In this document: positions 17,692-22,084 of the stretch, in pieces
Position numbering within the stretch: position 1 is the first letter of the stretch
Layout: every line of letters starts with the position of its first letter
Assembly: GCF_963675165.1 (NCBI RefSeq)
Contig: NC_087387.1
Location: forward strand, 577,501-641,500
Origin: Halichondria panicea
Lineage: Eukaryota; Porifera; Demospongiae; Suberitida; Halichondriidae
Direction of reading: 5' to 3'
DNA length: 64,000 nt
Program-made: the position numbers and the translations under genes
The notes under the pieces: generated by a model
The model's database searches: none
The model's input: the letters and a program-made list of their open reading frames with translations, nothing else
What the model was told of the DNA's origin: nothing

Positions 17692-20070
17692 ATGACCTCT
17701 CTCAATGACATCAAGAAGAACCTCAAAGGGGTAGGAAAATATTATTTTGATGATAAATAATGTGAGATTTACATAATAAAATTATTTTTATGTCCCCCCA
17801 TACAGTATCGCTATGCAGACCGGACTGCCAGGGATGCTCTCACACTCACTGAGAATTTTCGGAATCTGAAAGTCAAAGACATGAAATCATTCGGTGAGTA
17901 AACTGATCCACACACACACACACACACACACGCCCACACTCCCTCCCACACACACACACACAATCCGTATAATTATTATTCAATATTATGTTGCTTTGTC
18001 TGTAGTTCACAGTAATGGCAGTAAGGAGAACTGCGTGTCAGTGAGTGGGACCATACCAGTCCATATCAAAGGTACGTATATACATGTATATATTACATGA
18101 CGTAAACGACCCCACCACCTACCAATCTCAGCCACATTTTACGTGAAGCTTGTTTTAAACACACCATGTCCCCATTTTTACTGCCCAAACATGCATTTCA
18201 CTGTAGTACATACAATACCAAAGTACGTAGTCTTACCCAACAGCAATCCACTTCACACCTCTTCACACTTCTTCCCACAGGGACTAATTACAACATCCCC
18301 GTGACTATTTGGTTGCGTCCCACTCATCCATACAGCTCCCCCATAGTCTACGTGACCCCCACGGAGGACATGGGGATACAACAGTCACGCTATGTGGACG
18401 CGAGTGGACTCGTCTACCTGCCCTACCTCAGCGAGTGGAAACAGGTACATCAGTGTGTGGTGTGTGTGTGGTGTGTGTGTGTGTGTGTGTGGTGTATGTG
18501 TGCGCTGATCAAGTACTCACAAAGCATCTTTGAGCGGCCATGGCTTTAGTTCAGTTGGGCCAATAACATGATTTTCTGAAAGCTTAGAGAGAGGTGATAT
18601 TGTGTGTATAATGGCTCATAGTATTTTGTCAAAAACTGGTCGAAAGTAGACTTTTGATTTTAATATCCCAAAAAAGCGTTTTGCGTTGAGCGTTCCTTAT
18701 AAGGTTATATGTGGTCAACCATAAAGTTGTAGATCTTAGTCAGCATGTCAACAATGCACTATTCTACAAACAGTTGACGGATCAACTTGAAGATTCTCAG
18801 CAACACTTTGATAAGACAGTCCAAGCAGCTCTGTCTGATGCACTATTCTCCATCTAATAATACCACTTTTTTCACAAGAAAAAGCCATTTTGTTTTTGAA
18901 TTTTACTTCCTAAGCAGACTTGGCATTTCACCACAATGTGTTTATGACACCACAATGTGTAAAGATTAGATATCCATATAAGGAACGCTCTACACCCTCT
19001 ATTTCAAAGATTCTGCAAAACCCTGTACCATCTGAACGGGTTTCTTCAAAGCTTTCAGATCACCAGAACTCTAGTTATTATGCCTCGGTGCGCATGCGCA
19101 AGCGAGGTATACGGTAGTGTGTTTGTGTATCTGTGTGTCTGTGTGTGTAGACTATTTCAGCTGCTCAAGGATCAATGAAGTGCAAGTAAGAGTTTCTATA
19201 GGCTTCTAATCATGTTTTCTCGGCTTGCTATTTGTGGATTTGCAAAATAAAGCTTTGTTCTAGAGTTATGCCTAGTTTTGCTTACTTGGAATGCTATTGC
19301 AGCCTTTTCAGAAGAGTCCGTGGCAAAACTTGTTCACCGAGTGTTGCTACTCTACTTAGTAGTTAGCTCTGCACTAGAACGCTAGCTATAGCTGCAAGAG
19401 TGAGAAGAGAGCTGCAAGACTCTGCTGACTTGCAGCCATTAATTTTAGACTTGAACTTTTGGCATCGATCGTTTTTAACAACAATCATGGTCGATCATTA
19501 CCCACTATTTGAGTTTCCCTGTACTGATTGCACATGCAGCAAAATTAAAAATGTTCATCATGATATAAATTATAATCAATGTGTGTATAAAAGCTAGCTA
19601 TTAGTAGTTTTATGTTATGTAGCTTTGGCACCTCCACCGAGGCATCAGCACCTGCGGTGCTTATAAAACTAGTACTCTCAAAATATAAAACATGTTTGAA
19701 CGGCCATAACTTTAGCTCCGTTGGTTCAGTTAAGATGGTAATGGTGATATATAAGTAACTGTATGCCTGAATAAATCAACCACAGTAATCTGTACATGTA
19801 AGTCTGAGCATAATTATATATACTAATTATCACTAAGTAATCTTACACGATTGTGCCCTTCTCTACAGAACTCCTCTGACCTCCCCACTCTCACTCAAGT
19901 TTTGTGTGCCACATTTGCTGAACATTGTCCAGTGTACAGTAAGAGTAAGGTTCTCAAGCAGCAACAACCGACACCCCAGTCCGTACAGCCACCCAGCACC
20001 TATGCCACACCCTCTAAAATTCCCACCCCCCAGCAGTACGGAAACACTCCTCCCAGAGGACCCTATCCTG
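17692..20070 (+). CDS. TSG101-like UEV-only copy, lacks the C-terminal half
   Basis: TSG101 is the ESCRT-I subunit whose UEV domain binds ubiquitin and P(T/S)AP motifs. Five exons in consistent phase: 17692-17730, 17806-17893, 18006-18071, 18281-18444 and 19869-20070, together 186 codons plus one base. UEV hallmarks are SGTIPVHIKGTNYNIPVTIW, HPYSSPIVYVTPTEDM, YVDASGLVYLPYLSEW and TFAEHCPVYS. A short Gln/Pro-rich segment follows (to about residue 186). No coiled coil or steadiness-box exons follow; homology to the complete copy stops in the intron near 20210. The final donor (CCTG|GTGTGT, phase 1) could splice to the acceptor at 20330 (ATTCCCCAG), joining the RING/B-box/HINT gene in frame. If unspliced there, translation runs into the intron and stops at about 20240. 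Confidence 0.85.
18530..19080. mobile_element. Foldback repeat remnant (CATAACTTTAGT family)
   Basis: Lies in the intron between exons 4 and 5 of the UEV-only gene. The left side has TTTAGTTCAGTTGGGCCAAT and TTTTCTGAAAGCTTAGAGAG. The right side has AAAGCTTTCAGATCACCAGA and CTCTAGTTATT as degenerate inverted counterparts. The interior is longer than in the relatives at 13008 and 23244, so a nested insertion is possible. Confidence 0.5.
19082..19365. mobile_element. Dispersed repeat with GCATGCGCAAGCGAGGTATACGG end
   Basis: Begins at GCCTCGGTGCGCATGCGCAA. The interior (TTCTATAGGCTTCTAATC, ATAAAGCTTTGTTCTAGAGTTATG) is similar to 46375-46640, which shows a dispersed family. The terminal motif also survives at 61627-61650, in the (CA)n region of duplication copy B. 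No coding capacity is visible. Confidence 0.6.
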
Positions 20071-20350
20071 GTGTGTATGTTGTGAGACTTGGGGCTGGGG
20101 CAAGTACATCAAATTATTACCTTAGGTTCCATGTTTTAGTCTTGTGTGTGTGTGTGGCTGACACCTGGCTTTGTTTGGTGGGTACACACTTTTCTTACAA
20201 TGAGGACTGCATGGTATTTTTAGAAAGAAGTATGTACACTTAGTATTGACTGCTTCTTACTTGTGCATTGGGTTACAGTACAGTGATGACCCATGCAACT
20301 ACAATGTTAACAGTTAATTGTATTCCCCAGAGAAGAAACAATTGCTAACG

Positions 20351-22084
20351 ATGGCCGAAGGACCTGATCCAGTTGTTGCTGATCTCGAACAAGAAGTGAC
20401 CTGTGGTGTCTGTCATGACCGCTACCAGGAGCCAAAGCTGCTCCCTTGTTGTCACTACTACTGCAAGCAATGCATCCTCACACTCTCCAGTCGCTACCGA
20501 CCCAACCAGCCGTTCCCCTGCCCCGACTGTCGTGAGCCCACTCTATTACCAGACAACAACCCAGACAGACTGCCCACTGCGTTCTTTATCAACCGAATGA
20601 AAGCACTCCACTCGAGGATGGAGAAAGCCCACGGCAAGTTGGAGACTACTTGTGAAATGTGCTCTGGAGGAAAGGCTACTGCATTTTGCCGACAGTGTGT
20701 CAATTTCATCTGTGAAGATTGTGTAAGATCTCATCAGCGTATGAAAGCTGTGTTTTCTACACATATCGTTTCCACTCTGGACGAGCTCAAACAGGGCGAA
20801 GTGAAAGAACTAACATTCAAAAGCCCACCACCCCCAAAATGTGAAGATCACGACGAGCCAAAAAAGATTTTCTGTTTTGATTGCGACAAGCTCATCTGTC
20901 GAGACTGTGTTGTGTTCGATCACCGTGACCACAAGTCAGAGTTTGTAAAGAAAGCCGCCCCCGCAACTCATCAAAAGCTGGCGGAGCACCTCTCCCCACT
21001 CAAGAACCTACTGCCTGATCTGAGCACCGCTGTGAATCAAGTGAAAGGAACTAAACAAGAGATCCATGCCCAAAAAGAACTGACAGAGAGACAAGTGAAT
21101 GCCAAGTTCCAGGAGCTACATGTACACAAAGAAACTTCTGCTATGTCTGATTCAAAGACGGAGAAGGTGGAGTCAACCCTATTCACCAAGATCCTTAATA
21201 AGGAGATTCCAGCCTCTATTGTACATGAAGACGACCAGGTGAGACTGCAGCTAAAAACACACACTGCATACAATTTTTCTGTAAAAATGTATCATACTTC
21301 TTCAAAATAAGGCCTCCTTCCAATATCCCTTATAACACCATATAAATTCATTGGCTATTTCTTGTTTTAAAAACCTAATTATTAACACCTTTAGACAGTC
21401 GTAGATCACTGACAGTGAGTGAGTGTTTTATTCCAGTGTATGGCCTTCCGAGATGTGAATCCAGTTTCCTCCACCCACATTCTGGTGATTCCACGGAAAC
21501 CTATTCCCATGCTATCAGCTGCACAGGACGACGATACTCAGGCAAGAATATTTTTAGTACACAAACTTACTGCATCTAATGCCCTCCATTGTTCATGCAG
21601 CTGCTGGGTCACCTGCTCCAGGTTGCGAGGAGAGTGGCTGACTCTGAGAAGTTGGAGGAGGGATATCGAATTGGTAAGAGTAGTAGATGTTCTGTATGAA
21701 GAAAGTATGTATTTGTAGCTCTTTGATAGTTCTATCCAATGGTGTGCTTATAAATCATTGATTTTTGGGTCCAAATCTGAAGAAAAAACATGACTATAAT
21801 GAGTTTTTTCTTAATAGCTAACTTTGATTGTCTGATTAATGTGTGCTTTTGTGTATGATAGCTCTATGTACTTTTTAATCAACATAGATCCATATCTTTT
21901 GTTATAGTAGTTGTAGCAAGGTGGTATGTCATTAGCTCCCCCCACACCCCCACACACACACATCCCCCCCCCACACACACACACACACACAGTGATCAAC
22001 AATGGTAAGCATGGAGCTCAGTCTGTCTACCACCTCCACATTCACATCATGGGAGGAAGACAGTTCGAGTGGCCACCTGGATAA
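20351..22084 (+). CDS. RING/B-box (TRIM-like) protein fused in frame to HINT
   Basis: A chimeric gene. Exon 1 (20351-21238, 296 codons from the first ATG) encodes a RING finger with ligands C18, C21, C33, H35, C38, C41, C57 and C60. B-box 1 has C101, C104, C113, C116, C121, C124, H128 and H138. B-box 2 has C164, H167, C175, C178, C183, C186, H191 and H194. A shortened coiled-coil-like helix follows (about 200-262). Without a stop or intron it then runs into HINT sequence ([20 protein letters not shown]). Exons 21437-21541, 21601-21673 and 21993-22084 complete the HIT domain, including HLHIHIM and WPPG. The total is 385 residues. The predicted activity is a ubiquitin E3 module joined to a nucleotide phosphoramidase domain. 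An internal ATG just upstream of the HINT part (residue 265) could yield HINT alone. The GC donor of exon 2 is retained as in copy 1. The exon can also be entered from the upstream UEV gene by the acceptor at 20330. Confidence 0.88.

Follow-up and report, generated by a model that had tools for sequence, protein, structure and literature searches.

We analysed a window of 64,000 nucleotides (nt) from the sponge Halichondria panicea (contig NC_087387.1, positions 577,501 to 641,500 of the forward strand) and describe a gene at 17692..22084 that combines parts of TSG101, a TRIM-NHL gene and a HINT gene. At the DNA level this is a well-formed chimeric gene. Judged from its sequence, it probably originated in the tandem duplication of a HINT-TSG101 unit, with a piece of a TRIM-NHL gene at the junction, and gives a joined UEV-RING-B-box-B-box-HIT message; expression as one joined protein is likewise what we would expect, with moderate confidence. 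No description of a UEV-RING-B-box-HIT protein was found in the open-access literature, among the matches listed, which does not entitle us to call it unpublished. The route of origin is already known, and the architecture is apparently new.

Structure of the predicted fusion gene

The features of the locus, all on the + strand, are as follows.

16192-16425, 16656-16760, 16818-16890 and 17264-17355, +: exons of HINT copy A, from translation and alignment with 21168-22084
17692..20070, +: TSG101 copy A, truncated; five exons, UEV and proline-rich tail, with a phase-1 donor at the end
20071..20330, +: junction intron; homology to TSG101 intron 5 up to 20208, end of a TRIM 5'-untranslated region (5'-UTR) intron from about 20315
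20331..20350, +: former TRIM 5'-UTR leader, 20 nt; reads E-K-K-Q-L-L-T with the G of the donor
20351..21166, +: TRIM-NHL fragment; RING, B-box 1, B-box 2 and the start of the coiled coil
21167..22084, +: HINT copy B; exon 1 shared with TRIM to 21238, then 21437-21541, 21601-21673 and 21993-22084; HLHIH and WPPG motifs
22285..26835, +: TSG101 copy B; UEV exons 22285-23880, more open frames from 24259, Vps23_core at 26719-26835
17692-17730, 17806-17893, 18006-18071, 18281-18444, 19869-20070, 20331-21238, 21437-21541, 21601-21673 and 21993-22084, +: exons of the predicted fusion gene, from the joined translation

The nine joined exons form one open frame, which starts at the ATG at 17692 and ends with the stop at 22082-22084. 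Their sum of 1737 nt and 579 codons, as given in the original prediction, is reproduced when the stop is counted (578 amino acids). The exon model and its translation also confirmed the phase-1 donor that had been placed at 20070, at the end of the truncated TSG101 copy. This donor (CTG/GTGTGT) is the best-scoring GT site of 19869-20329, in a ranking by a splice weight table. The proposed acceptor at 20330 is present, with the ATG of the RING exon 20 bases further on, at 20351, and the join of 20070 to 20331 translates in frame and without a stop: read from the donor, the leader gives G+AG AAG AAA CAA TTG CTA ACG ATG. The introns of the fusion are of the GT...AG type, except for the GC start (gcaagaata) after 21541, an exception identical in HINT copy A. 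HINT intron 2 is thus a GC-AG intron in both copies (starts at 16761 and 21542).

The fusion of HINT to TRIM sits within one exon, that is, at the level of DNA, and therefore only the UEV-to-RING link depends on splicing. Read-through of the junction intron from the donor at 20070 meets a stop at 20241, and neither AATAAA nor ATTAAA occurs in 20071-20330. By our own estimate, the chance of an in-frame, open join is about 1/4 (1/3 for the phase, times about 0.75 for the lack of a stop), so the open joined frame alone is weak evidence. The comparison of leaders and the conservation tests described below add weight beyond it.

Domains of the predicted product

Pfam matches above the cut-offs bore out the claim that a UEV, a RING, two B-boxes and a HIT domain lie in one open chain. 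In the 578-residue product these are the UEV (PF05743, E 2.3e-36, residues 21-141), the RING (zf-C3HC4, PF00097, E 2.9e-5, 24.3 bits against a cut-off of 21, residues 211-253), the B-boxes (zf-B_box, PF00643, E 2.5e-13, two stretches at residues 294-331 and 354-388) and the HIT domain (E 9.7e-28, residues 476-572). The Vps23 core was not among the 13 families matched in the product at E<=0.01, and the fusion is for this reason not classed as TSG101.

In a search of solved structures, the UEV matched human TSG101 (3.1e-34), and the TRIM segment matched TRIM3 (8amr, 4.1e-23) and TRIM2 (3.2e-16), with the RING and the second B-box aligning to TRIM3. The HIT domain scored higher against HINT2 (158.6 bits, 5.5e-46) than against HINT1 (144.3 bits, 1.5e-41). 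By alignment, the UEV keeps Y68, N69, W75 and M95 of human TSG101; the position of Y63 is Ile in the fusion, as it is in TSG101 copy B. Y63, Y68, N69 and M95 are residues that we take to line the PTAP pocket of the human protein. The zinc ligands of the RING are retained, plus an Arg after the last Cys, and the HIT triad HLHIH and the C-terminal EWPPG are both present. The first part of the coiled coil is kept, as far as residue 258 or so of the TRIM piece, and the remainder is absent before HINT.

The duplicated HINT-TSG101 unit

That the gene lies on the junction of a duplication, as originally proposed, was confirmed by self-comparison of the window, which revealed two copies of a HINT-TSG101 unit, at about 16356-20208 and about 21168-24235. 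The frame of HINT copy A is complete and begins at 16192; its N-terminal extension, absent from the fusion copy, looks by eye like a mitochondrial presequence. HINT copy B has no counterpart to the 5' part of exon 1. The Vps23_core match of TSG101 copy B (26719-26835) is the only one scored in the genome, and the possibility that copy A is a full TSG101 was rejected because that sole match belongs to copy B. A tandem duplication requires an intact 5' end in HINT copy A and an intact 3' end in TSG101 copy B, and both are present. A single duplication with a TRIM-filled junction would leave the outer genes with their outer ends and make only the junction gene new, and the locus may well go back to one such event.

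The introns of the two units differ by 7-38%. Between 16192-17355 and 21180-22084, the HINT exons are 98-100% identical, and introns 1, 2 and 3 are 82%, 93% and 63% identical; homogenisation confined to exons and strong constraint on silent sites are both candidates for this contrast. The UEV does not share it, with exons at 88-96% and introns 1-3 at 81-92%. Contig C5 carries a HINT1-like gene of its own (L022).

The TRIM-NHL source

The RING/B-box module is a fragment of about 0.85 kb from a local TRIM-NHL (TRIM2/3-like) gene. A search of the genome with this piece gave 142 matches, and 57 others on the same contig span the RING and B-boxes at 84-92% identity; 51 of these 57 have open frames of more than 700 amino acids. 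The one member of the parent family that was scanned (L028) has a RING, B-boxes, filamin and NHL. These TRIM-NHL-like arrays are very large: C11 (G000:C11:235744-1756478) carries 57 or more close copies besides that of the window, and among the best candidates scored many more such frames, at about 30-33% identity, form arrays on C3.

The breakpoint upstream of the fragment is bracketed between 20208 and about 20315. A genome search with 20195-20350 returned no match besides the query locus. The segment 20209-20330 was no better than shuffles when compared with the intron of L087 (158/500 as good) or with the end of the TSG101-B intron (347/500 as good), and it beat nearly all shuffles when compared with L028 (2/500 as good). 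These results are mixed, hence a bracket and not a fixed point. A processed copy as the origin of the RING piece was rejected, since the piece carries intron sequence 5' of the acceptor that matches L006 from 20315. When TRIM upstream DNA was compared by BLAST with 17301-20350 of the window, two short stretches matched (19 and 25 nt); both lie in intron 4, at about 18568-18593, and look by eye like a dispersed repeat.

An inherited acceptor, a missing first exon and the frame of the leader

A YYCAG no more than 70 nt before the ATG was present in all 48 recognised TRIM starts, and in 42 of them it was exactly CCCCAG. These 48 starts represent 42 distinct 300-nt upstream sequences, since some genes were fetched twice, and they include two truncated copies; another 15 fetched TRIM loci had no start by the pattern used and stand outside the 48. 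The acceptor at 20330 is, on this comparison, the inherited 5'-UTR acceptor of the TRIM family, and its interpretation as chance sequence was rejected on the same ground.

Upstream of this acceptor, a GTAAG occurs within 600 nt in each of the 13 TRIM relatives checked, and in 11 of the 13 it belongs to the same recognisable block, 134-432 nt before the ATG. In the window no GTAAG occurs in 20071-20350, and none of four exact motifs of the upstream block was found on the + strand. The TRIM first exon thus seems to have been left behind at the junction. With this exon apparently missing, and with the 5' end of HINT copy B missing as well, the donor of TSG101 copy A looks like the available upstream partner for the acceptor at 20330. 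No other argument for a joined message is as strong, yet it is one from absence.

The frame of the leader adds a further point. The TRIM leaders, from acceptor to ATG, measure 10, 13, 16, 18, 22 or 40 nt, although in seven of them, those of 16 nt, an extra ATG forms the end, so that their true length may be 13 nt. Their length leaves a remainder of 1 on division by three in 47 of the 48 starts, of 0 in one and of 2 in none, whereas the 20 nt of the window leave 2. A phase-1 donor needs a remainder of 2; none of the 48 starts could therefore be read in frame from it, and the window copy can. The remainder of 1 is shared by 47 leaders even though 31 of the 48 contain an in-frame stop. The leader most similar by alignment score, of 22 nt, belongs to a pair of truncated copies located around C11:997,200 and 1,220,200. 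Joined to the donor at 20070 it would be out of frame, and the loss of two bases from such a leader would make the join readable. We weighed the match of frames as a factor of about three.

Taken together, these comparisons leave the original prediction standing in its architecture, coordinates, phase, length and duplication junction, and refine it in four respects: the RING and B-boxes are from a TRIM-NHL gene, the acceptor is inherited, the HIT domain scores higher with HINT2 than with HINT1, and HINT and TRIM are fused within one exon. The support is partial, in that the joining of 20070 to 20331 in cells is inferred and the functional link of cargo recognition, ubiquitin ligation and nucleotide hydrolysis is a proposal.

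Conservation of the three parts

Between copies A and B of the UEV, substitutions per synonymous site (dS) amount to 0.159 and those per nonsynonymous site (dN) to 0.058, a dN/dS of 0.37 (bootstrap 0.19-0.67; p=0.0033). Polarised against human TSG101 over 141 columns, four of the amino-acid changes in the UEV fall on A and three on B, and 10 could not be placed. The UEV introns 1-3 contain 8 gap runs in 390 aligned bases; the exons of UEV copy A contain no frame-breaking indel (P 0.014-0.05 if neutral). The HINT copies are separated by three silent changes and one replacement in 111 codons (dN 0.004, dS 0.040). For the RING, dN/dS against each of 14 relatives was 0.16-0.27. Against 16 relatives, with L037 dropped as the same gene as L018, the window copy has 6 private silent and 6 private replacement changes, which is fewer replacement than silent changes per site (p=0.026), and none of the family-consensus Cys or His residues is changed over the 256-257 codons compared. 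By these measures the UEV, RING and HINT parts look conserved, and copy A is not visibly decaying.

Alternative interpretations

The joined message has to be weighed against the production of two separate proteins, which we regard as somewhat unlikely. A RING-B-box-HINT protein of 385 amino acids would then start at the ATG at 20351, from a promoter of its own or a cryptic one, and UEV copy A would either be read through to the stop at 20241, as a short protein of its own, or be decaying. For this reading, the ATG at 20351 is where the TRIM family itself starts, the acceptor belonged to a 5'-UTR exon in the parent genes, and read-through from the donor does reach that stop. Against two products, 20071-20350 is without the GTAAG that relatives have 134-432 nt before the ATG, HINT copy B is without the 5' part of its first exon, the junction intron has neither AATAAA nor ATTAAA, and the leader has the frame that the UEV donor needs. 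Non-functional debris of the duplication, with an open frame that is young and not yet decayed, is quite unlikely: silent divergence between the UEV exons of A and B is low, at about 0.16 per site, and an in-frame join has its chance of about 1/4, but indels have accumulated in the UEV introns and none breaks the frame of the exons, every family Cys and His is intact, and the HINT copies are one amino acid apart in 111 codons. That the assembly has united separate loci is highly improbable, because introns that differ by 7-38% between units do not fit a single locus having been assembled two times, the contig extends over 6.8 Mb with the junction in its interior, and the joined parts share one open frame.

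Several observations count against the joined message as we propose it. In two of the 13 relatives, L028 and L035, the GTAAG lies in other sequence than the common block. Over the first 290 coding bases, the copies with the 22-nt leader share only 94% identity with the window, and those with a leader of 13 nt as much as 98%. Similarity of leader and closeness of coding sequence thus point to different copies, which makes the ancestry of the leader uncertain. The 48 leaders reflect few independent changes of length. A neutral copy A beside a constrained copy B would, by our own estimate, give a pairwise ratio near 0.6, which is within the bootstrap range, so the dN/dS of the UEV alone does not settle the question of drift. 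Intron 4 (1.4 kb) or the junction intron may contain a cryptic promoter. Finally, the TRIM piece appears to be a mosaic without a single closest source: copies with 13-nt leaders come closest over the first 290 coding bases (up to 97.9%), and L030/L008, with a 40-nt leader, does so over 20641-21120 (92.1%). This lowers our confidence slightly.

Proposed function and comparison with known systems

For the joined message that we favor, transcription would start at the promoter of TSG101 copy A, splicing would connect the phase-1 donor at 20070 with the acceptor at 20330 inherited from TRIM, and the message would end after HINT copy B. In the protein, the UEV would recruit partners that are ubiquitinated or bear P(T/S)AP motifs, and the RING would ubiquitinate them. 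HINT proteins are dimers. The HIT domain could accordingly dimerise the fusion protein, in place of the shortened TRIM coiled coil, and may keep its phosphoramidase activity. As the fusion has no Vps23 core, it is expected to bind the partners of TSG101 and not to build ESCRT-I; it could compete with TSG101 or tag its partners. As the presequence-like extension is absent from the fusion copy, the HIT domain would act outside mitochondria. A long shot is an expressed and selected E3 ubiquitin ligase with the UEV as bait, so that any cellular or viral P(T/S)AP protein calling on ESCRT-I would be ubiquitinated, a TRIMCyp-like defence or a form of cargo control gained in one duplication event.

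The nearest parallel is human UEVLD (UEV3), in which UEV exons of a duplicated neighbouring TSG101 are joined to exons of the gene next to it, which encodes a metabolic enzyme, lactate dehydrogenase (PMC2926785, PMC12513931). The sponge gene resembles it in placing duplicated UEV exons of TSG101 before a downstream gene, and its layout, phase and splice sites, known from DNA alone, fit. It differs in its partner, a TRIM fragment with a HIT-family hydrolase in place of a dehydrogenase, and in having three sources, not two. We take the two fusions as independent events. Tandem duplications are reported to create chimeric structures in Drosophila yakuba (PMC5460883).

Compared with TRIM-NHL proteins of the TRIM2/TRIM3 type, with whose solved member TRIM3 the RING and second B-box align, the fusion lacks filamin and NHL and has a shortened coiled coil; it has gained a HIT domain behind and, if spliced as proposed, a UEV in front. 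TRIMCyp (TRIM5-cyclophilin A) also consists of the N-terminal part of a TRIM with a new C-terminal domain (PMC4378998, PMC2279257). Its cyclophilin A was retrotransposed, whereas the HINT gene here keeps its introns and came by tandem duplication. Tal/LRSAM1 is a RING ligase of TSG101 (PMC7874611); LRSAM1, which contains a PTAP motif, acts on its target in trans, and the sponge gene would be a cis version, with UEV and RING in one chain. If the junction is used, one rearrangement has yielded a three-source protein and spared both parent genes, and copies of the sources can still be read on the same contig. The locus would then stand as a parallel to UEVLD and as a natural test of a UEV and a RING in one chain.

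Other observations

A possible second UEV fusion lies at L003 (G000:C15:2322976-2326149), where a UEV at 1501-1674 is followed by an open reading frame at 1850-3115. The start of this frame resembles the end of a UEV with a proline-rich tail; beyond it come a coiled coil, judged by eye, and then a protein kinase domain (PF00069, 2.3e-35). At L004 (G000:C3:1323123-1326308), a UEV-like exon with a TAA in the matched frame is followed by open reading frames that look coiled-coil-like by eye. The window also contains a direct segmental duplication of about 9.4 kb, 27589-36892 and 54769-64000, with 94.6% identity, which reaches the window edge.

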